Assembly: GCA_938049385.1 (NCBI GenBank)
Contig: CALIBQ010000014.1
Location: forward strand, 1 to 36,884
Length of the DNA stretch: 36,884 nt
Reading direction: 5' to 3'
DNA from: an uncultured Anaerolineae bacterium
Lineage (GTDB): Bacteria; Chloroflexota; Anaerolineae; JACIWP01
Within the stretch, counting starts at the first letter, position 1; each line of letters starts with the position of its first letter. The position numbers and the translations under genes are program-made. Below, piece by piece: positions 1,513 through 10,680 of the stretch. Under the pieces are notes generated by a model, which was not told the origin of the DNA, did no database searches, and saw only the letters and a list, made by a program, of their open reading frames with translations.

Positions 1513-2556
1513 TCAGGAGCCGCCGGCCAGCGCGGCGTTCAGGGCCTCCAGCACAGCCTTGGCGTCCGCCACCACGCCCAGGTCGGCATAGGGGAAAATC
1601 TCCGCCTTGGGGTCGGTGTTGATGGCGATAAGGCATTCCGTCCTGGCGATGCCCAGCATGTGCTGGATGGCGCCGGCCGCACCGCAGGCGATGTACAGCG
1701 CCGGCCGCACCGTCTGGCCGGCCATGCCGATGAGCTGTTCCTCGCTGATCCAGCCTTCGTCCAGCGCGCCGCGGGTGCCGGCGAGCCGGCCGCCCAGCCT
1801 CTCCGCCAGCCGGCGGGCCAGCTCGACCCCTTCCTCATCCCCCACGCCGCGCCCCACGCAGACGATGACCCGACTGCGGGATAGGGGCGGTTCCGGCAGG
1901 CCTTCGGGGAATGGGCCAAGCACTTCGACCCTGGCCGGCGGCAGGTCGTCGTAGGATACATGCTCCACACTGCCGTAGCGGTACGGGTCGGCGAAGGGCG
2001 CCGGCAGTACGCCCGGTTCCACCGTAGCAAACTGCGGGCGCAGGGTCGGGCTGACCAGAATCTCGTAATACTCGCCGCCCAGGCGCGGGACAGTGGCCAG
2101 CAGGGCGCGCAGTGCTTCATCCACCCCCAGGTCAATACAGTGGGTGAAGAGCGGGGCGCGGAAGCGCGCTGCCAGGCGCGGCGCCAGTTCACCGCCGAAG
2201 CTTGTGGCATTGAAGAGGACGATCTCGGGCCGGCCGCTCTCGATCTGGCGGGCTAAGGCTTCGACATAGGGTTCGACGGCGAAGGATCCCAGGCCGACGC
2301 CCTCCAGGAGATAGACGGTGTCGGCGCCGTAGGAGATCATCTCACTGCCGGCGGCTTCCTGCGCGCCGAACAGGATGCCCTTGACATATACCCCGAGCGC
2401 GTTGGCCATGTCGCGCGCTTTGCCCAGCAGGGCGCGGGTGGCCGGCGTCAGCCCCTCGCCGCTGACCTCGCCCACCACCCAGATATCTTGATATGCGGCT
2501 TCAGCGGCGGCCATCTCCTCGCCGCCCATCAGGCTTTGTAGAAAGTCCAGGTCCAT
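1513..2556 (-). CDS. etfA: Electron transfer flavoprotein alpha subunit
   Basis: A 347-residue EtfA, which binds FAD and passes electrons between acyl-CoA dehydrogenases and a downstream acceptor as a heterodimer with EtfB. The C-terminal FAD domain is clear: Arg262 in TRGALDEGW, GQTV (280-283), LYIACGAAGAIQHM (287-300) and AINTDPKAEIF (311-321). The ATG at 2556 is preferred to the GTG at 2562, because AGGAGG (2567-2562) overlaps the GTG. AGGAGGTGATC before the ATG is complementary to the whole 16S anti-Shine-Dalgarno end. It is the last gene of the operon, 43 bases after etfB. Whether the pair is an ordinary or a bifurcating Etf cannot be settled by eye. Confidence 0.94.
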   Translation of the reverse strand: MDLDFLQSLMGGEEMAAAEAAYQDIWVVGEVSGEGLTPATRALLGKARDMANALGVYVKGILFGAQEAAGSEMISYGADTVYLLEGVGLGSFAVEPYVEALARQIESGRPEIVLFNATSFGGELAPRLAARFRAPLFTHCIDLGVDEALRALLATVPRLGGEYYEILVSPTLRPQFATVEPGVLPAPFADPYRYGSVEHVSYDDLPPARVEVLGPFPEGLPEPPLSRSRVIVCVGRGVGDEEGVELARRLAERLGGRLAGTRGALDEGWISEEQLIGMAGQTVRPALYIACGAAGAIQHMLGIARTECLIAINTDPKAEIFPYADLGVVADAKAVLEALNAALAGGS

Positions 2557-2599
2557 GATCACCTCCTGACCTATATGCTGTGCGGAGGCCGGCGGGTGT

Positions 2600-3376
2600 C
2601 TATATCAGCCGGCGCTGGCGCAGGAGGGCGAGGATCTCGCCGGCCATCTGCTCCGGCGCGCCCTCGATGACGTTCCCCAGCTCGCGCTCCGGCGGGAAAA
2701 CCTGCCCCCGGCTCTCGATATTGGGCCTCAGCTCCTCAGCCGTGAAGCCCAGGTCCCCTGCCGTCCAGACGCTGACCCCCATCTGACGGTAGGCGTTGAG
2801 GATGCGGGCGCCGTGGGGATAGCGCGCCGGCGGTGCCAGGGGCGAGACTGCGATCAGGGCCGGCGGGGCGACCGCGACCATGATGGGCCGGCCGTCCCAC
2901 AGCCGCACCACTTTGAGCCGTTCACCGTCGAGGGAGAGGGTGACGGCGTGCAGGACCTGCGGCAGGCCCAACAGCTCCGCCAGCCGGCCGGCGGTCTGGT
3001 CGCCGCCGGTATCCGCGGCGGTCTGGCCGACCAGCACCAGGTCACAGGGTGCCAGGCGTTCGATGGCGCGTGCCAGGACCACAGCGGCGGTCGGGGCGTC
3101 GATGCCAGCGAGCGCCTTGTCGCTGATGAGCACCGCCTGGTCCGCGCCCAGGGCCAGCGCCTCGCGCAGGGCGTCATCGGCGGAAGGCCGGCCGAGGCTG
3201 AGGGCGATGACCTCTGCTCCGTGCGCATCTTTCAGGCGGAGGGCGGCTTCGAGGGCGCATTTGTCGGCGGGATTGATGATGCGCTCCTCGCGGTTGATGA
3301 AGATGCGTTCGCGCCGGCGGTTGACCGTGATGCCCTCTGGGTCCAAAATTTGCTTGACGGCTACTGCTATCCTCAT
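2600..3376 (-). CDS. etfB: Electron transfer flavoprotein beta subunit
   Basis: A 258-residue EtfB, partner of the downstream EtfA; the family binds AMP or a second flavin. It opens with MRIAVAVKQILDPE, typical of EtfB, and carries INPADKCALEAALRLKD (34-50), an ALREALALGADQA stretch (69-81) and VLVGQTAADTGGDQT (114-128) in the nucleotide-binding domain. The length is normal. The ATG at 3376 has AAGGAGGAAAAG before it. Etf genes directly downstream of two acyl-CoA dehydrogenases imply that these enzymes reduce this Etf. No ETF:quinone oxidoreductase or Rnf gene is present in the window, so the final acceptor is unknown. Confidence 0.94.
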   Translation of the reverse strand: MRIAVAVKQILDPEGITVNRRRERIFINREERIINPADKCALEAALRLKDAHGAEVIALSLGRPSADDALREALALGADQAVLISDKALAGIDAPTAAVVLARAIERLAPCDLVLVGQTAADTGGDQTAGRLAELLGLPQVLHAVTLSLDGERLKVVRLWDGRPIMVAVAPPALIAVSPLAPPARYPHGARILNAYRQMGVSVWTAGDLGFTAEELRPNIESRGQVFPPERELGNVIEGAPEQMAGEILALLRQRRLI

Positions 3377-3400
3377 CTTTTCCTCCTTGTCCGCCTCACC

Positions 3401-4567
3401 TCACGGGCTGATGCGCACGCCTTCCTGGCGCATAATGTCGGAGGCGATGACGATGCGCTGAATCTCGTTGGTGCCCTCGAAAATCTCGGCGATGCGGGCG
3501 TCACGGAACATGCGCTCGATCTCCAGGTCGCGGCTGTACCCCAGTGCGCCGTAAATCTGCACCGCCTGGGAGATACAGCGCGAGGCCACTTCGGAGCCGT
3601 AGAGCTTGCACATGGCCGCGTAGCGCGTGAAGGGCTGGCCGGTGTCCACCATCCAGGCCGTGCGATAGACCAGGGAGCGCAGGGCTTCGATTTCCGTGGC
3701 CATGTTGGCGATCATCCACTGGATGGACTGGTTGTGCACGATGGCCTTGCCGAACTGACTGCGCGCCTTGGCCCACTGGATACTGCGCTCCAGGGCGGCC
3801 TGCGCCCCGCCCAGACAAGCGGCGCCCAGGCTGACGCGGCCGACGTCGAGGGTTTTCATGAAAGTGACGAAGCCGGCGCCGAACTGCCCCAGGATGTTCT
3901 CCTTGGGCACGCGCACCTCGTCGAACACCAGTTCTGAGGTGCCGCTCCCGCGGATGCCCATCTTGTCCTCGACCTTGCCGACACTGCACCCCTTCCAGTC
4001 CATCTCGACGATGAAGGCGGTGATGCCGCCGCGCGGCCCCAGCGATGGGTCGGTGACCGCCATGACGCTGACAATATCAGCGATAGGGCCGTTGGTGATG
4101 AACATTTTGGAGCCGGTGAGGATGAAGTCATCGCCGTCGCGCACGGCGCGGGTGCGGATGGCGGCGGCGTCGGAGCCGGCGTTGGCCTCGGTCAAGGCGA
4201 AGGCCGCGATTTTCTCGCCGCGCGCCAGGGGGGTGAGGTATTTTTTCTTTTGCTCCGGCGTGCCGTCCAGGTAGATCGCCATAGCGCCGATGCCGGTGTG
4301 CGCGCCGATGACTGTGGCGGTGGAGGTGCAGACCCGGCCGATTTCTTCCATCAGGATGCAGTAGCCCAGCTCGCCGGCGCCCATGCCCCCGTACTCCTGC
4401 GGGAACGGCACTCCCATCATGCCCAGCTCCGCCGCCTTGCGGATGATCTCCCGCGGCACCTCTTCCTCAATGTCAATCCTCTTGGCCAGCGGAGCGACCT
4501 CCTGGCGGGCGAAGTCGCGAATCATGCGCCGTAGCAGTTCATACTCTTTGGGCAGTGTAAAATCCAT
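3401..4567 (-). CDS. Acyl-CoA dehydrogenase (first of two, Etf-proximal)
   Basis: A 388-residue flavoenzyme that oxidises acyl-CoA to trans-2-enoyl-CoA and hands electrons to Etf. The family signature AFALTEANAGSD (122-133) and the C-terminal block around QIYGALGYSRDLEIERMFRD are present. The catalytic base is Glu364 in EIFEGTNEIQR, the short/medium-chain position. The ATG at 4567 has AAGGAGG seven bases upstream; an in-frame extension to 4714 only overlaps the upstream dehydrogenase. It lies 22 bases after the other acyl-CoA dehydrogenase and 24 before etfB. Butyryl-CoA dehydrogenase, or a short branched-chain enzyme, is the likeliest role; chain length is inferred from context only. Confidence 0.93.
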   Translation of the reverse strand: MDFTLPKEYELLRRMIRDFARQEVAPLAKRIDIEEEVPREIIRKAAELGMMGVPFPQEYGGMGAGELGYCILMEEIGRVCTSTATVIGAHTGIGAMAIYLDGTPEQKKKYLTPLARGEKIAAFALTEANAGSDAAAIRTRAVRDGDDFILTGSKMFITNGPIADIVSVMAVTDPSLGPRGGITAFIVEMDWKGCSVGKVEDKMGIRGSGTSELVFDEVRVPKENILGQFGAGFVTFMKTLDVGRVSLGAACLGGAQAALERSIQWAKARSQFGKAIVHNQSIQWMIANMATEIEALRSLVYRTAWMVDTGQPFTRYAAMCKLYGSEVASRCISQAVQIYGALGYSRDLEIERMFRDARIAEIFEGTNEIQRIVIASDIMRQEGVRISP

Positions 4568-4589
4568 CGTTTGCCTCCTTCCCGGCGCG

Positions 4590-5756
4590 TCAGGGGCGCA
4601 GTGAGATGCCGTGCGGCGCAAACTGATCGCGGGCGATGAGGAAGCGCAGTATCTGGCTGGTTCCCTCGGCGATTTCCATGGCCCGCAGATCACGGTAAAT
4701 GCGCTCGATGGCATATTCTTTCATGTATCCATAGCCGCCGTGCACCTGAAGCATGCGGTTGGCGATGCGCATGGCGTACTCGGAACAGATAAGTTTGGTG
4801 ATGGCGGCCTGTGTCCTCAGCCGGCTGTCCCCTTGCTCCGCCAGCCAAGCGGCGTAATGCACCAGATGGCGCATGGCCTCGACCTCGGCGCGCGAGTCAG
4901 CGATGAAGTTCTGGATGGCCTGCTTGAGGGCGATGGGACCGCCGAACTGCTCATGCTCCACGGCGAAGCGCGTGCCGTTCTCCAGCGCGGCCTCCGCCGC
5001 CCCCAGGCAGATGGCTGATAGGCCGACGCGCGAGAGGTCCAGTGCCTCCAGGGCGATGGCGAAGCCTTGTCCCTCCTGGCCCAGCAGACGATCCGCTGGC
5101 ACCTCCGTCCCGTCGAAATAGACCGTGTTGGCGACCAGGCCGCGCAGGCCCATGGTCTTCTCGCGGTAGCCGACCCGCACCCCTGGGGTGTCCACGTCCA
5201 CCAGGAAGGCACTGATGCCTTTACCGCCCGGCTCGTCCGAGGTGCGGGCGAACACCAGCAGTAGCTGTCCGATGCCGGCGTTGGTGACCCACGTCTTGGA
5301 GCCGCGCAGGATGTAGCGGTCGCCCTGGCAGACAGCGGAGGTGCGCAGGGCGGCGGCGTCGGAGCCGGCGCCGCTCTCGCTGAGGGCGAAGGCTCCGATG
5401 ACCTCGCCGGCGGACATGGCCGGCAGAAGCTCCTCCTTCTGCTCCTCGGTGCCGTGGCGCAGGATGGCACTGCCCACCAGCGCCACGTGCACGTTGATAG
5501 TCAGCGCGGTGGAGGCGCAGGCTTTGCCCAAATGCTCCATCAGCAAGGCATAGGAGATCATGTCCAGCTCCGCGCCGTCGTATTTTTCCGGGAATATGGC
5601 GCCCAGGAACCCCTGTTCGGAGGCGGCTTCGAGCTGTTTCAGCGGGGGCTTCTCTTTATGGTCGGTCTCCTGTGCCAAGGGAGCGACTTCGTTGGCGCAG
5701 AAGTCCTCGAACATTTTCACAAACATGCGCTGGTCTTCGTTGAGCGAGAAATCCAT
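4590..5756 (-). CDS. Acyl-CoA dehydrogenase (second of two)
   Basis: Also 388 residues and collinear with its neighbour at 3401-4567, but clearly diverged, so an old rather than a recent duplication. It has GAFALSESGAGSD (121-133) and catalytic Glu364 in EIAEGTSQILR. It probably differs from the neighbour in chain length or branching preference. The ATG at 5756 follows GAGGAGGGAAGGC; the open frame beyond it runs into the palindromic element. It is the first gene after that element, so its transcription depends on readthrough across the element or on an unrecognised promoter within or beside it. Confidence 0.93.
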   Translation of the reverse strand: MDFSLNEDQRMFVKMFEDFCANEVAPLAQETDHKEKPPLKQLEAASEQGFLGAIFPEKYDGAELDMISYALLMEHLGKACASTALTINVHVALVGSAILRHGTEEQKEELLPAMSAGEVIGAFALSESGAGSDAAALRTSAVCQGDRYILRGSKTWVTNAGIGQLLLVFARTSDEPGGKGISAFLVDVDTPGVRVGYREKTMGLRGLVANTVYFDGTEVPADRLLGQEGQGFAIALEALDLSRVGLSAICLGAAEAALENGTRFAVEHEQFGGPIALKQAIQNFIADSRAEVEAMRHLVHYAAWLAEQGDSRLRTQAAITKLICSEYAMRIANRMLQVHGGYGYMKEYAIERIYRDLRAMEIAEGTSQILRFLIARDQFAPHGISLRP

Positions 5757-5791
5757 GCCTTCCCTCCTCTCCAGGCGCGGAAAGCGTCCTG

Positions 5792-6013
5792 CCCCGGTAA
5801 TGAGGGCGTTGAGAAAGTCCAAATATACAACCTGTGGAAGAGCGGCCTGGCGGCTGAAGCCACGGCAACAACTGCGAAGCCTGCGTAGGCAGGCTTCGCG
5901 AAGTCGGCCTGCGCCGACTTCGCAGACGCAGACGCAGTTTCAACTGCCAGGCGATGAGCCAATACCCGCAACTCGAATGGCAATCTTGACCTTTTCCACA
6001 CCCCGGTAATGAG
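5792..6013. mobile_element. Palindromic MITE/REP-like element with flanking direct repeats
   Basis: Identical 13-mers CCCCGGTAATGAG occur at 5792-5804 and 6001-6013. Between them the ends form imperfect inverted repeats: GGGCGTTGAGAAAGTCC (5804-5820) against GGGGTGTGGAAAAGGTC read on the minus strand from 6004. Inside, GCCTGGCGGCTG (5845-5856) pairs imperfectly with 5941-5952. Two perfect hairpins sit in the centre, 5874-5884/5889-5899 and 5898-5908/5913-5923. There is no transposase, and the open frames across it are low-complexity by-products of the palindromes. The structure fits a small non-autonomous insertion, with the direct repeats as target duplication. It fills the 307-base gap between the hydratase and the dehydrogenase genes. 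Confidence 0.65.
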
Positions 6014-6014
6014 C

Positions 6015-6053
6015 GCCGGCGGGGTAGCCGCTCTCCCCCGCTTCCCCGCCGGC
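6015..6053 (-). terminator. GC-rich hairpin after the enoyl-CoA hydratase gene
   Basis: Arms GCCGGCGGGG (6015-6024) and CCCCGCCGGC (6044-6053) begin 11 bases after the hydratase stop codon. No U-run follows, so it may be a weak or Rho-assisted terminator, or an RNA processing stem rather than a full stop. Confidence 0.4.
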
Positions 6054-6063
6054 CGGGGGCATC

Positions 6064-6849
6064 TCAGCGGTCCTTGAACTGCGGCTGTCGCTTTTCCAGG
6101 AAGGCGCGCACGCCTTCATGCATGTCCTCGGTCTCCAGCAGGGAGGCGAATTTGTCCGCCTCGTACAGCAGGCCCTCGCTCAGGCTCATCTTCAGGCCGG
6201 TGTCCACGCAGTCCAGGATGGCGCTGATGGCGATGGCACTGCGGGAGGCGATCTTTTTCGCCAGGCCCTGGGCGGCTTTCAGCACCTCGCCGGCCGGCAC
6301 CACCTGGTTCACCAAGCCGATGCGGTAGGCCTCCTGGGCGTTGATCATGTCGCCGGTGAGCAGAAGCTCCAGGGCTTTGCCCTTGCCGATCATGCGCGGT
6401 AGGCGCTGGGTGCCTCCCCAGCCAGGGATGATGCCCAGGTTGATCTCCGGCTGGCCGAAGCGGGCGTTGGCGCTGGCGATGCGGATGTGGCAGGCCATGG
6501 CCAGCTCGTTGCCGCCGCCCAGACAGACGGCGTTGATGGCGGCGATGACCGGCTTGCGGCTGGCCTCGATGCGGTTGAAGAGCGCCTGGCCGCGCAGGAC
6601 CACTTCTTTGGCCTGTTCCGGGCTTTTCAGGGCGTTGATCTCGTTGACGTCGGCGCCGGCGACGAAGGCGAACTGGCCGGCGCCGGTGATGATAATGACC
6701 TTGACCCTGGGGTCGTTGGTGGCTTCCTCAAAGGCGGCTTCCAGGTCCATCACGGTCTGGGTATCGAAGGCATTGGCCGGCGGGTGGTCAATGGTGATGG
6801 TGGCCACCCGATCGTCCACGCTGTAGCGCACATTCTGATACTCGCCCAT
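6064..6849 (-). CDS. Enoyl-CoA hydratase/isomerase family protein (crotonase)
   Basis: A 261-residue crotonase-fold enzyme that hydrates trans-2-enoyl-CoA to 3-hydroxyacyl-CoA. The oxyanion-hole stretches are AFVAGADVNEI (61-71) and AVCLGGGNELAM (107-118). Both catalytic glutamates are present, Glu115 (GGNELA) and Glu135 (GQPEINLGIIPGWGGTQ). Two ATGs compete; GGAG (6861-6858) is only two bases from the ATG at 6855 but eight from the ATG at 6849, so 6849 is chosen. It lies 37 bases after the hydroxyacyl-CoA dehydrogenase gene. The full catalytic pair favours a true hydratase over an isomerase. Confidence 0.92.
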   Translation of the reverse strand: MGEYQNVRYSVDDRVATITIDHPPANAFDTQTVMDLEAAFEEATNDPRVKVIIITGAGQFAFVAGADVNEINALKSPEQAKEVVLRGQALFNRIEASRKPVIAAINAVCLGGGNELAMACHIRIASANARFGQPEINLGIIPGWGGTQRLPRMIGKGKALELLLTGDMINAQEAYRIGLVNQVVPAGEVLKAAQGLAKKIASRSAIAISAILDCVDTGLKMSLSEGLLYEADKFASLLETEDMHEGVRAFLEKRQPQFKDR

Positions 6850-6886
6850 CGTCATGTCTCCTTTCTAGTGAGTGAGCGGCGGGTCA

Positions 6887-8110
6887 TCAGGCGTATTCCA
6901 GGAAGCCTTTGCCGACCTTCTTGCCGAGGTGCTTGGCGCGCACCTTGGTGCGCAGGAGGCGCGCCGGCCGGAACCGCTCGCCGTACTTGGCGGTGAATTC
7001 CTCCAGTTTTTGCAGGACGTAGTCCAGGCCGAGGGTGTCGGCCAATTGCAGAGGCCCCATGCGTTCGCCGCGATAGGTCATGCCGGTGCCGGCGATCATG
7101 GCCATGTCAATGTCGTTGACGTTGGCCACGTGCTCGGTGACGCAGAGGACGGCCTCGTTGATCATGGGCATCATCAGGCGTTCCTCGCTGAACTCGGTGC
7201 CGGTCTTGACCTCGCCGGATTCCTGCAGTTCCTTGATGAACTGCTTGACCGGTTCGTCGGTCTGGTCGCCGTAGCCGTAAAAGCCGGCGCCGGATTTCTC
7301 TCCCAGCCGGCCGGCCTGCACCAGTTTGGCGAAGAGCTTGGCCGGCTCCATGCGCGAGCCGTACTCCTGATACAGGTACATGCCCACATCGTAGCAGATG
7401 TCCAGCCCCAGCATGTCCATCAGGGTGAACGGACCCATCGGCCAGCCGAAGGCTGTCATGCGCTCATCAATCTCGGCGGCGGTGGCCGCGCCTTCCTCCA
7501 GCGCCTTCACCGCCTCGTTGAGGTAAGGCATCAGCAGGCGGTTCACCAGGAAGCCGGGACATTCCTGCACCACCACGGGGATTTTGCGCAGGCTTTCGGC
7601 AAACATGACGACGTCGTCCACGGTCTCCTGGGAAGTATCCAGGCCGGGGATGACTTCGACGAGCTTCATGACGTGGGCAGGGTTGAAGAAGTGCATGCCG
7701 ATGACCTTCGCCGGCCGTTTGGTGGCCGCCGCCATCTCCGAGATGGACAGAGCCGAGGTGTTGGAGGCGAAGATGGTGCCCTCGGGGCAGATTTCATCCA
7801 GCTCGGCGAAGACGCGCTGTTTGATGGACATCTTTTCCGGCACGGCCTCGATGACGATGTCCACATCCTCGAAGCCGTCGTAGGTGAGCGTCGGCGTGAT
7901 CAGGTCGAGTTTGGACTGCATCTCGCCGGCGCTCATCTTGCCTTTGTCGACGCGCCGCTGATAGATGTCGCGGATGCGCGCCATGCCCTTGTCCAGCATG
8001 GCCTGGTCCACGTCCTTCAGCACAACGGGCAGGCCGGAGTAGGAGATCACCTGAGCGATCTCCGCGCCCATTGCGCCGGCTCCCACAACACCCGCTTTGA
8101 AAATGTACAT
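6887..8110 (-). CDS. 3-hydroxyacyl-CoA dehydrogenase
   Basis: A 407-residue NAD-dependent enzyme oxidising 3-hydroxyacyl-CoA to 3-oxoacyl-CoA. The Rossmann motif GAGAMG is at 10-15. The catalytic dyad is His140 (GMHFFNPAHVMKLVEVI) and Glu152. It is longer than the roughly 280-residue clostridial Hbd because it has two successive C-terminal 3HCDH domains (about 189-285 and 305-405), as in the dehydrogenase half of FadB but without the hydratase half. The ATG at 8110 follows AAGGAGGAGGTCGAACG. The separate hydratase downstream supplies the activity missing compared with FadB. Confidence 0.94.
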   Translation of the reverse strand: MYIFKAGVVGAGAMGAEIAQVISYSGLPVVLKDVDQAMLDKGMARIRDIYQRRVDKGKMSAGEMQSKLDLITPTLTYDGFEDVDIVIEAVPEKMSIKQRVFAELDEICPEGTIFASNTSALSISEMAAATKRPAKVIGMHFFNPAHVMKLVEVIPGLDTSQETVDDVVMFAESLRKIPVVVQECPGFLVNRLLMPYLNEAVKALEEGAATAAEIDERMTAFGWPMGPFTLMDMLGLDICYDVGMYLYQEYGSRMEPAKLFAKLVQAGRLGEKSGAGFYGYGDQTDEPVKQFIKELQESGEVKTGTEFSEERLMMPMINEAVLCVTEHVANVNDIDMAMIAGTGMTYRGERMGPLQLADTLGLDYVLQKLEEFTAKYGERFRPARLLRTKVRAKHLGKKVGKGFLEYA

Positions 8111-8152
8111 CGTTCGACCTCCTCCTTCAGGTTATATGTGCGGGCCGCTCCA

Positions 8153-8422
8153 TCACCACGTCCGCAGGGCGATGGCCCGCTCCGGCTCACCGATGCGCAC
8201 GAAATAGACCCATTTGTCGGGATATTTGGCGTAGGCCAGGTCGTTGGCCTTGCCCAGGGTTGGGCCGATGAAGAAGTCGCCGGAATCTGCTTCAATGGCG
8301 GCAATCTGGCCGGCGTACTGTGCCTCCCATTCGGCGCGATGGGCCTCATACACCTGCATAGCCTTGCGGGCGAGTTCCGCCTGGGCCTTCTTGTCCTTGT
8401 GCATAGCGACGATGTCCATCAT
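8153..8422 (-). CDS. Hypothetical 89-residue protein in the acyl-CoA operon
   Basis: I do not recognise this family. The product is 89 residues, soluble, with no signal peptide or membrane segment. Its first half is rich in Ala, Lys, Glu and Gln and should be helical. The second half contains GDFFIGPTLGKANDLAYAKY and ends in ALRTW. A strong AAGGAGG seven bases before the ATG at 8422 (a second ATG lies at 8419), tight spacing (34 bases after thiolase, 42 before the dehydrogenase) and the absence of another plausible frame make it a real gene. Its place between thiolase and 3-hydroxyacyl-CoA dehydrogenase suggests an accessory role with these enzymes, which is inference only. Confidence 0.75.
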   Translation of the reverse strand: MMDIVAMHKDKKAQAELARKAMQVYEAHRAEWEAQYAGQIAAIEADSGDFFIGPTLGKANDLAYAKYPDKWVYFVRIGEPERAIALRTW

Positions 8423-8456: not shown

Positions 8457-9656
8457 TTATGCCCGTTCGATGACGATAGCGCCGCCCATGCCGCCGCCGA
8501 CGCATGCCGTGGCCAGGCCCCACTGCACGCCGCGCTTGATCATCTCGTGCAGGAGGGTGACCACGATGCGGGTGCCGGTACATCCGACGGGATGTCCGAG
8601 GGCAATGGCACCGCCGTTGACGTTGACTTTGTCCCAATCCCACCCATCCGGCTCCAGCTCCCGGCCGACAGCCAGCACCTGGGCGGCGAAAGCCTCGTTG
8701 ATCTCGATGAGGTCAATGTCCTTCAAGGTCAGGCCGATGCGCTTCAGGGCGGCCGGCACAGCGCGCGCCGGGCCGATGCCCATGATCTCGGGTGGGACGG
8801 CGGCGTAAGCGTAACTGCGGACATAGGCCAGCGGCTTGAAGCCGAGGGCGTCCGCCTTCTCCTTAGTCATGACGATGACGGCCGCCGCGCCGTCGGAGAT
8901 GGGACAGGCGTTGGCCGGCGTGATTACCCCGCCCTCCTTGAACACCGTGGGATAGAGGGCGGCCTTCTGCACCGTCAGGCTGGGGTTGATGCATTCGTCC
9001 TGGATGATCTCCTCGCGGGCAACCTCCTGGCCGGCAGCGCGCTTGATGACCGGCACCGGCACAATTTCATCGCGGAAGCGGCCGGTGCGCGTCGCCATGA
9101 AAGCCTTCTTGTGCGACTGTACAGCGAACTGATCCAGCTCCTCGCGGGTCAGGCCGTACATCATGGCTAGGTTCTCGGCGGTGTACCCCATGATTTGGTT
9201 GCAGATGGGGTCGGTCAGCCCCTCCCATAGGGTGTCAATGAAGGTAGTGTGGCGCAGTTTCAGCCCCCAACGGGCGCCGCGCACCACATAGGGGGCGGTG
9301 GACATGGACTCTGTGCCGCCGCAGAGGAAGATTTCTCCGTCGCCGGCCTGGATGGCCTGATACGCGCTGGAGATGGCGACCATGCCGGAGACGCAGTTGC
9401 GCTGGACGGTGAAGCCCGGCACCCGAATAGGGATGCCGGCCATCAGAGCCGCCACCCGCGCGATGTTGGGCGCGTCGCTCTGCTGTCCGATGCATCCCAG
9501 GATGACCTCGTCAATGAGGCTCGGGTCCAGGCCGGTGCGCTCCAGCACGCCCCGCATAGCGATGCTGGCCAACTCCTGAGCGGTGATGTCACGAAATGCT
9601 CCACCATGTGCGCCGATTGGTGTGCGCACCCCTCCGATGATGACGACTTCTTTCAC
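8457..9656 (-). CDS. Thiolase (acetyl-CoA C-acyltransferase)
   Basis: A 399-residue thiolase that cleaves 3-oxoacyl-CoA, or condenses acetyl-CoA in reverse. The nucleophile is Cys88 (QRNCVSGM). His355 is in GHPVGCTGT, and the second catalytic cysteine is Cys385 (ACVGGGMGG). The start is taken as the GTG at 9656, six bases after AGGAGG. An overlapping ATG at 9658 is followed at once by TGA (ATGTGA), so it cannot be the start. The first gene of the acyl-CoA operon; a long leader with a candidate structured RNA lies upstream. Degradative and biosynthetic thiolases cannot be told apart here. Confidence 0.94.
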   Translation of the reverse strand: MKEVVIIGGVRTPIGAHGGAFRDITAQELASIAMRGVLERTGLDPSLIDEVILGCIGQQSDAPNIARVAALMAGIPIRVPGFTVQRNCVSGMVAISSAYQAIQAGDGEIFLCGGTESMSTAPYVVRGARWGLKLRHTTFIDTLWEGLTDPICNQIMGYTAENLAMMYGLTREELDQFAVQSHKKAFMATRTGRFRDEIVPVPVIKRAAGQEVAREEIIQDECINPSLTVQKAALYPTVFKEGGVITPANACPISDGAAAVIVMTKEKADALGFKPLAYVRSYAYAAVPPEIMGIGPARAVPAALKRIGLTLKDIDLIEINEAFAAQVLAVGRELEPDGWDWDKVNVNGGAIALGHPVGCTGTRIVVTLLHEMIKRGVQWGLATACVGGGMGGAIVIERA

Positions 9657-9857
9657 ATTGGCCCTCCTTTCTGGCAGGAAATGACGATAATGCGATGGAC
9701 GGTTGCAAATGGGCAAAAGCAGTACTGCGGCGAATGATACCCCAAGGATGCTGGCAGGGGCAGGGACGGGACCAGGAAGATGTAGCCCCAGGTCAGCGAT
9801 GGACGACGATGCTCTCGACGCGCCAAAGCGGTGGACAGGACAGCACGAACCCTAGCC

Positions 9858-10066
9858 AAACAAAACGGCCCTGCGCCATGAGAGGGCCGGCGCACCCGAA
9901 GGAGTGCTGGCTCTGGCGAGGGCCATTTGACATAATGGACGTATGTTCATTCCTAGAAGAACGGATGGGCAGGGGCAGATGAACATCAATGGACCTTCCC
10001 TGTTGTTCGGCGCCGCGCTGCGGAAACAGCCCCATTCCTCACGAACCAGTCCTTGTTCGCGATGAC
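9858..10066 (-). ncRNA. Candidate structured RNA or leader upstream of the thiolase operon
   Basis: A promoter (10073-10102) would start a minus-strand RNA near 10066. The RNA can form CGAAC/GTTCG and CCGC/GCGG stems near its 5' end and an ATGTTCAT/ATGAACAT stem (9978-9985 with 9944-9951). At its 3' end two interleaved stems compete or form a pseudoknot: 9894-9889 with 9877-9872 (TGCGCC/GGCGCA) and 9888-9883 with 9872-9867 (GGCCCT/AGGGCC). TTTTGTTT (9865-9858) follows. That is a terminator, or a conditional terminator in the leader of the thiolase gene. It does not match 6S, SRP, RNase P, tmRNA or a canonical T-box that I can recognise. No protein-coding gene is supported in 9657-10191. Confidence 0.35.
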
Positions 10067-10072
10067 ACTATT

Positions 10073-10102
10073 ATTGTACACCAAAACGGGTACGCTCGTC
10101 AA
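10073..10102 (-). promoter_or_regulatory. Minus-strand promoter in the thiolase-rnhA spacer
   Basis: The -35 is TTGACG (10102-10097), 5 of 6 to consensus. The -10 is TACAAT (10078-10073), 5 of 6, with an 18-base spacer. It points toward the thiolase operon and the candidate RNA. A weaker TATCAT (9739-9734) nearer the thiolase gene has no good -35. Confidence 0.5.
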
Positions 10103-10124: not shown

Positions 10125-10152
10125 TTGCGAAACGGACGGTTTGCGTTATCAT
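10125..10152 (+). promoter_or_regulatory. Probable rnhA promoter
   Basis: TTGCGA (10125-10130), a 16-base spacer and TATCAT (10147-10152) would give a 5' UTR of roughly 30 bases before the rnhA ATG. The match is moderate. Confidence 0.4.
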
Positions 10153-10191: not shown

Positions 10192-10680
10192 ATGGAGGAC
10201 CAACGCCCGGAAGTGATCATCTATACCGACGGCGCATGCGAGGGCAACCCGGGGCCGGGGGGCTGGGCGGCTCTGCTGATCTCTGGCCGGCATAGGAAGG
10301 AGCTGGCCGGCGGCTCCTCCCACACCACCAATAACCGCATGGAACTGCGGGCCGCCATCGCCGCGCTCAAGGCCCTCAAACGTCCTTGCAAGGTCACGCT
10401 GTACACTGATTCCCAGTATCTCCAGCGCGGCATCACGGAATGGCTCCCCAAATGGCGGCGCAACGGCTGGCGCACCGTTCAGAGGGGCCACGTGCGGAAC
10501 CAGGATTTGTGGCAGGAGCTGGCCGTTCTGCTGGATACACACGAGATCGAATGGCGCTGGACACGGGGACACGCCGGCGACCCCTACAACGAGCGCGTGG
10601 ACCAGCTTGCGCGGGAGGCGGTGCGCACCTTCGGCCGGCAGGCGCCCCCCGATATGGACCCCCAGAATCACGCCCGCTGA
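10192..10680 (+). CDS. rnhA: Ribonuclease HI
   Basis: A 162-residue RNase HI, which cleaves the RNA strand of RNA-DNA hybrids using two metal ions. All four catalytic acids are present: Asp13 ([14 protein letters not shown]), Glu51 (NNRMELRAA), Asp73 (LYTDSQYL) and Asp137 (NERVDQLA), with His127 in [12 protein letters not shown]. The length is that of the E. coli type. The ATG at 10192 is preceded by GGGAG; an in-frame TTG at 10141 lies inside the probable promoter. Its stop codon is one base from the stop of the convergent gene at 10682-12166, so there is no room for a terminator between them. Confidence 0.96.

Follow-up and report, generated by a model that had tools for sequence, protein, structure and literature searches.

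What lies ahead of the thiolase operon of this uncultured Anaerolineae bacterium, a device that gates transcription of the operon or an RNA with a role of its own? In the window (the whole stretch of DNA analysed, 36,884 nucleotides), the minus strand carries a promoter, a leader and a terminator in the interval that separates a thiolase gene from a divergently transcribed RNase HI gene. An earlier note had read this interval as a conditional terminator of riboswitch-like logic or, alternatively, as a stand-alone small RNA. The features of the locus are the following.

10195-10680, plus strand: rnhA, the RNase HI gene (Pfam), divergent from the leader
10073-10102, minus strand: sigma-70-type leader promoter TTGACG-18-TACAAT, with the same hexamers and spacing in 3/3 species of the genus compared
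10039-10062, minus strand: 5' hairpin of the leader, CGCGAAC...GUUCGUG (consensus z -3.89)
9962-10037, minus strand: conserved middle of the leader, without detectable structure (z +0.41)
9994-10001, minus strand: Shine-Dalgarno-like AGGGAAGG of the leader frame, in 3/3 species
9852-9986, minus strand: leader frame MFICPCPSVLLGMNIRPLCQMALARASTPSGAPALSWRRAVLFG, 44 codons from ATG 9986 to TAG 9854-9852, spanning the whole terminator
9928-9961, minus strand: variable linker of low identity, separating two conserved modules
9864-9927, minus strand: terminator hairpin of 64 nt, including stems A and B of the earlier note as sub-pairings
9858-9865, minus strand: U-tract UUUUGUUU, invariant in the genus (3 species)
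9657-9857, minus strand: gap of low conservation that separates the terminator from the thiolase (53-55% identity)
8457-9656, minus strand: thiolase (Pfam Thiolase_N and Thiolase_C), first gene of the operon, starting at GTG 9656
1513-8422, minus strand: remainder of the operon, named in part from Pfam and in part from recall, as in the next four lines
8153-8422, minus strand: ORF of 89 aa between the thiolase and the 3-hydroxyacyl-CoA dehydrogenase, with no Pfam match
6887-8110, 6064-6855 and 4590-5768, minus strand: 3-hydroxyacyl-CoA dehydrogenase, enoyl-CoA hydratase and acyl-CoA dehydrogenase, in that order (Pfam)
3401-4714, minus strand: presumably a second acyl-CoA dehydrogenase-like gene, named from its translation
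2600-3376 and 1513-2562, minus strand: what we take, from their translations, to be electron-transfer flavoprotein subunits

It can be seen that the promoter claimed by the earlier note is present: TTGACG-18-TACAAT is the sole strong promoter-like site on its strand in the rnhA-thiolase interval, both in the window and in two other species of the genus (G001 and G002). The window leader runs for about 205 nt from this promoter to the intrinsic terminator, where the U-rich run that had been noticed (9865-9858) follows a GC hairpin, and the thiolase start (GTG 9656) stands about 200 nt further on, the distance that had been given. As to the several stems that had been described, two elements fold better than chance. 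First, the 5' hairpin was equalled by 1/400 shuffled alignments in the three-species consensus. Secondly, the terminator region of the window (MFE -37.7 kcal/mol, z -4.06) was equalled by 0/200 shuffles, and its consensus over the three species (z -4.69) by 0/400 shuffled alignments. Against shuffled alignments of the three species, folding of the middle (10037-9962) was no better than chance, and the 5' half of the leader as a whole gave z +0.18. In the window alone, the fold of the whole leader was ordinary (z -1.53, 10/200 shuffles as good).

The strings of stems A and B, interleaved and read earlier as a riboswitch-like switch, are there letter for letter, but they are fragments of a larger hairpin with a better 5' arm from 9927. 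The terminator 3' arm pairs with this arm with a probability of about 1.0 in the window and of 0.97-0.99 in G001, and of only 0.21-0.24 in G002, where a competing alternative fold is strong against the terminator hairpin. An anti-terminator pairing common to all three species was not found; a single one of the 9 duplex tests, that of the 3' arm in G002, scored better than every one of 300 shuffles, and this pairing is not shared by the three. With A and B as parts of one hairpin, no conserved anti-terminator and a middle without conserved structure, switching between the two stems is not supported. Checked for covariation, the alignment of the three species gave two-sided changes in 2/67 predicted pairs, both within one long-range helix.

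Within the genus, the comparison covered the window and the two relatives, three close sequences in all, and rnhA, leader and thiolase are retained in both. The relatives are 81-86% identical to the window in the promoter, 84-87% in the 5' half of the leader (10065-9962) and 89% in the terminator, against 46-48% in the linker (9924-9961), 26-33% upstream of the promoter and 64-68% at fourfold sites of the thiolase. Because identity is high relative to the flanks and to these fourfold sites, promoter, leader and terminator look as if they had been selected as a block. It might be argued that a conserved promoter region precedes a non-functional hairpin by chance, a reading left some room by three close sequences and by two-sided changes in so few predicted pairs. 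The alignment score of the terminator, the invariant U-tract and the recurrence in 8 families described below speak against it, and we regard chance as scarcely credible.

Some further observations were made in the same comparison. A motif (C/T)CTGCCCCTGC occurs on the minus strand at 9969-9979 (leader middle) and at 9754-9764 (pre-thiolase gap); both copies are retained in G001 and G002, and with one mismatch allowed the window holds 8 matches vs 3.1 expected. On the plus strand, a promoter-like TTGCGA-16-TATCAT at 10125-10152 may serve the divergent rnhA, and a TATCAT-bearing site on the rnhA strand is also present in both relatives. The window thiolase is 95% identical to one in 'Anaerolineae bacterium RSWS7'.

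Rfam gave no family at the gathering threshold for the window, the two relatives or 13 related loci, in agreement with the earlier statement that the element fits no known class. HOTTIP_1 and sR32 produced one sub-threshold match each, which were judged to be chance. Identity with a housekeeping RNA was likewise rejected, the 6S RNA copy of this genome being located on another contig (G000:C13:45453-45633, 85.8 bits) and its small SRP RNA on a third (G000:C43:32843-32942, 70.5 bits). Outside the genus, blastn was run against the class (396 genomes) and the phylum (400 genomes), and the covariance model R1 against 298 genomes of the class; all of these returned only short or weak extra matches. 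Extra matches were inspected at the DNA level for L004, L008, L063, L081 and L082, with L064-L068 left out: L004 is a match of 50 bases, L008 lies inside a short-chain-dehydrogenase-like frame, and L063, L081 and L082 appear by eye to be coding, so that all five were put down to chance or to coding sequence. A pattern scan of viral contigs gave no match. As judged by sequence, the leader RNA seems limited to the genus.

Since the leader RNA has no sequence relatives, the upstream DNA of orthologous thiolases was compared instead. A thiolase search of the 396 class genomes (E<=1e-150) gave 76 loci in 75 genomes, and in 34/76 a same-strand TetR-type gene stands upstream of the thiolase. From the 42 non-TetR loci, four with less than 400 nt upstream (L110, L153, L163, L166) were dropped, leaving 38. 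A unit was scored where a promoter of score at least 10 was followed, 130-225 nt after the -10, by a hairpin of -18 kcal/mol or lower with a T-rich tail; these thresholds were chosen after the pattern was known, and the initial loci from a contig scan (GTDB) that had revealed it are excluded from the 22/38 counts. The promoter-leader-terminator unit was found at 22/38 non-TetR loci vs 3/34 TetR-type loci. In the controls it preceded 6/324 other ORFs and 3/90 other genes with an upstream gap of at least 180 nt (22/38 vs 3/90, Fisher 1e-11, loci of one genus not being independent). The 22 unit-bearing loci span 13 genera and 8 families of Anaerolineae, while 16/38 have neither a unit by the criteria used nor a regulator.

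Of 25 leaders delimited by hand, two (L129 and L143) did not look leader-like and were excluded. The resulting 23 include L127, which is below the promoter threshold, its genome G054 still being counted among 22 leader-type genomes. All 23 leaders are 145-209 nt long, about 190 nt being typical, and their sequences cannot be aligned between families. The upstream neighbour is rnhA in the window genus, a mutL-like gene in L086, L091, L101, L111, L126 and L162, and adenosine deaminase in L099 (called with Pfam on L086, L099 and L162, and by motif in the others). As the neighbour varies, the leader seems to travel with the thiolase, which argues for cis control. From terminator end to thiolase start there are about 37-83 nt in L086, L099-L101, L107, L111, L123 and L126, so that little room is left for a second promoter in those families. 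The gap of about 200 nt in the window could hold an unrecognised promoter; no conserved one was found in it (9657-9857) among the three species.

These results bear on the second proposal of the earlier note, the stand-alone small RNA. We take it here as an RNA that acts in trans and has a promoter and a terminator to itself, the thiolase being transcribed from a separate promoter. A promoter, a 5' hairpin, an unstructured conserved middle and a terminator make up the usual anatomy of such RNAs; conservation ends at the terminator, and the CUCCUU read in the terminator loop could pair with Shine-Dalgarno sequences. However, the unit keeps company with the thiolase in 13 genera though its sequence changes, its end comes within about 37-83 nt of the thiolase start in several families, and the gap that follows it in the genus is without a conserved promoter. 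A stand-alone small RNA therefore seems improbable, its anatomy notwithstanding. A cis-acting leader terminator of the thiolase/beta-oxidation operon is probable, and the conditional terminator first proposed gains support from the recurrence of the unit in 13 genera, even though the leaders cannot be aligned between families, and from the short distances to the thiolase in several families.

The TetR-type gene next to the thiolase at other loci encodes TetR_N and TetR_C_33 domains (Pfam). When the TetR of L098 was searched for, no match at E<=1e-15 was obtained in 20/22 leader-type genomes, and the matches in the remaining 2/22 are 29-30% identical and on other contigs. Matches of 50-81% identity were found in 10/10 TetR-type genomes searched; these ten were picked for having TetR at the thiolase, and only the absence side is informative. 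From these comparisons, the leader terminator appears to replace a TetR repressor at the orthologous thiolase locus. The two share the same position upstream of the thiolase in different Anaerolineae and differ in kind, the one being presumably a protein repressor and the other an RNA terminator.

A motif of the type GTGAA...ATCACCAAGTTGCC was also seen in the leader-type group, where several thiolase promoters have it at the -35 or immediately upstream of it (L015, about 3718-3741, and upstream of L091, L107, L019, L023 and L056). It is partly palindromic (TTTGTGAACTTCATCACAAA in L091) and is a candidate transcription-factor operator.

What might release the terminator? The leader contains a reading frame that is absent from the earlier note. 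It begins 80 nt into the window leader, and AGGGAAGG, whose duplex energy with the anti-SD is about -7 to -8 kcal/mol, sits 7 nt ahead of ATG 9986. The frames of G001 and G002, of 46 and 47 codons, are likewise open through the hairpin, and in the genus the stop codon lies downstream of the U-tract. For a wider test, the start with the strongest SD was picked by rule in 12 genus representatives and compared with dinucleotide shuffles of the leader. The best SD had a mean of -7.65 vs -5.33 in the shuffles, 0/500 of which were as strong. The frame belonging to it enters or passes the hairpin in 10/12 genera vs 5.84 in shuffles (8/500), and again in 10/12 with a second set of representatives (7/500), the other two frames being open in 2/12 and 6/12 (Fisher 0.012, pooled). 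The first set omits L104, of a 13th genus, in which the frame passes the hairpin. Over the 23 leaders, the frame ends past the hairpin in 10, in its 5' arm or apical loop in 8, in its 3' arm in 1 and before it in 4; it starts 49-83 nt into the leader in 20/23, and the hairpin begins 23-118 nt after the rule-chosen start codon.

Two related candidates were rejected. A hairpin sequestering the SD is not a general feature (mean z -0.26) and is present in some families only. An early mini-frame, from a GTG at about 10042 to a TGA at 9988-9986 that overlaps the ATG, has a weaker SD; read by hand, its changes have a weak codon-position bias.

An SD with a frame of roughly 25-50 codons, found in most families among the leaders listed, might also denote a gene that encodes a small protein and has an ordinary terminator. 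The peptides of different families, however, show no relation to one another, and within families conservation is poor, with nothing conserved in the genus past MxICPCPSV. When 10 pairs were compared, conservation of the SD frame was not consistently above that of the other frames. The codon changes between L087 and L088 comprise 16 non-synonymous and 0 synonymous ones, and several pairs of relatives are out of frame with each other owing to indels; L161 and L164 present the opposite case, with 17/26 residues identical and 6 synonymous changes. Moreover, the stop codon beyond the U-tract in the genus would leave the terminated mRNA without a stop. We consider a small-protein gene very unlikely. 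The leader frame, if it matters, would be a road for the ribosome rather than the source of a peptide. Tandem regulatory codons were also looked for: no run occurs in the window frame, and when the residues of 12 leaders are pooled (213 in total, with L 33, R 21, P 18 and C 14), none is indicated and no residue dominates beyond some leucine. At the nucleotide level, L161, L162 and L164, which belong to one family, have in common GACGCAGTGCGGCATAAAA at the 5' end of the leader and a GCAGACC.ATGATG block.

In the mechanism that we propose, transcription would start from the promoter at 10102-10073 to give the leader of about 205 nt, and by default RNA polymerase would halt at the U-tract (9865-9858). 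An early-loading ribosome close behind the polymerase would cover the 5' arm of the hairpin, so that the hairpin stays unfolded and the thiolase is transcribed; slow or absent translation of the leader would lead to termination. Because the hairpin begins only 23-118 nt after the start codon, termination may be the default, and readthrough would require that the ribosome load early or that the polymerase pause. In E. coli, a terminator usually remains active when it lies less than ~100 bp into a frame, the ribosome having not yet caught up (PMC4824070), and a translated stop codon a few bases upstream almost completely represses an intrinsic terminator (PMC4824070, PMC5021804). The same sources describe, in their passages on E. 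coli pyrBI (pyrL), a terminator placed within the leader frame and kept from folding by a tightly coupled ribosome (PMC5021804, PMC4824070).

The likeness lies in a leader frame with an SD that overlaps the intrinsic terminator, as in the window, both relatives and 10/12 genus representatives. pyrBI senses UTP via polymerase pausing. The present leaders belong to another operon and another phylum and are unrelated to it in sequence, and in several families their stop codon falls in the 5' arm or apical loop of the hairpin. With the amino-acid leader-peptide attenuators of the trp, his and ilv type they share an SD, a short frame and an intrinsic terminator ahead of an operon. In those systems the leader frame ends well upstream of the terminator, whereas here it overlaps the terminator, and neither a regulatory codon run nor a conserved anti-terminator pairing is found.

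Release might instead be due to an RNA fold that binds a ligand, to an antiterminator protein that binds the RNA, or to effects of Rho/NusA, the frames being incidental. Architecture and synteny require no translation, the leader peptides are without sign of selection, and strong local folds surround the start in some families (L107, z -3.67). Yet the genus is without a conserved aptamer-like structure (z +0.41 for the middle), there is no conserved anti-terminator pairing and no Rfam match, and both SD strength and openness of the frame exceed those of shuffles. We therefore hold non-ribosomal release to be rather unlikely. The architecture, its recurrence and the exchange with TetR come from sequence comparison, and from there we infer cis action, readthrough and ribosome coupling. 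Taken as a whole, we lean towards a cis conditional terminator that is relieved by a close ribosome, in a pyrBI-like manner, and that has replaced a TetR repressor. More tentatively, the beta-oxidation operon of Anaerolineae may be gated by a fast-evolving attenuator, with ribosome-polymerase coupling as the sensor and TetR replaced; in this joint claim, held with the same reserve, the architecture would be inherited and not the RNA or peptide sequence.

Among open-licence PMC papers, we found no report of attenuation of a thiolase or beta-oxidation operon, or of attenuation in Anaerolineae. Premature terminators have been surveyed by Naville and Gautheret (2010). The main text of that survey (PMC2965389) describes unrelated attenuators of one gene in different lineages, with a sensing part that diverges fast, and many short 'hypothetical' ORFs that are leader peptides; the string 'Chloroflex' is absent from it. 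Compared with the swaps described there, the exchange partner here is a protein repressor gene, and the 'fabH-leaders' of that text concern fatty acid metabolism but a different gene.

If the proposed reading is true, fatty-acid/butyrate-type catabolism would be subject to transcription attenuation in a phylum whose regulation is little known, and a repressor protein would have been exchanged for a leader terminator at a single locus. It would also mean that sequence-based searches for RNA families overlook attenuators that keep their architecture alone.
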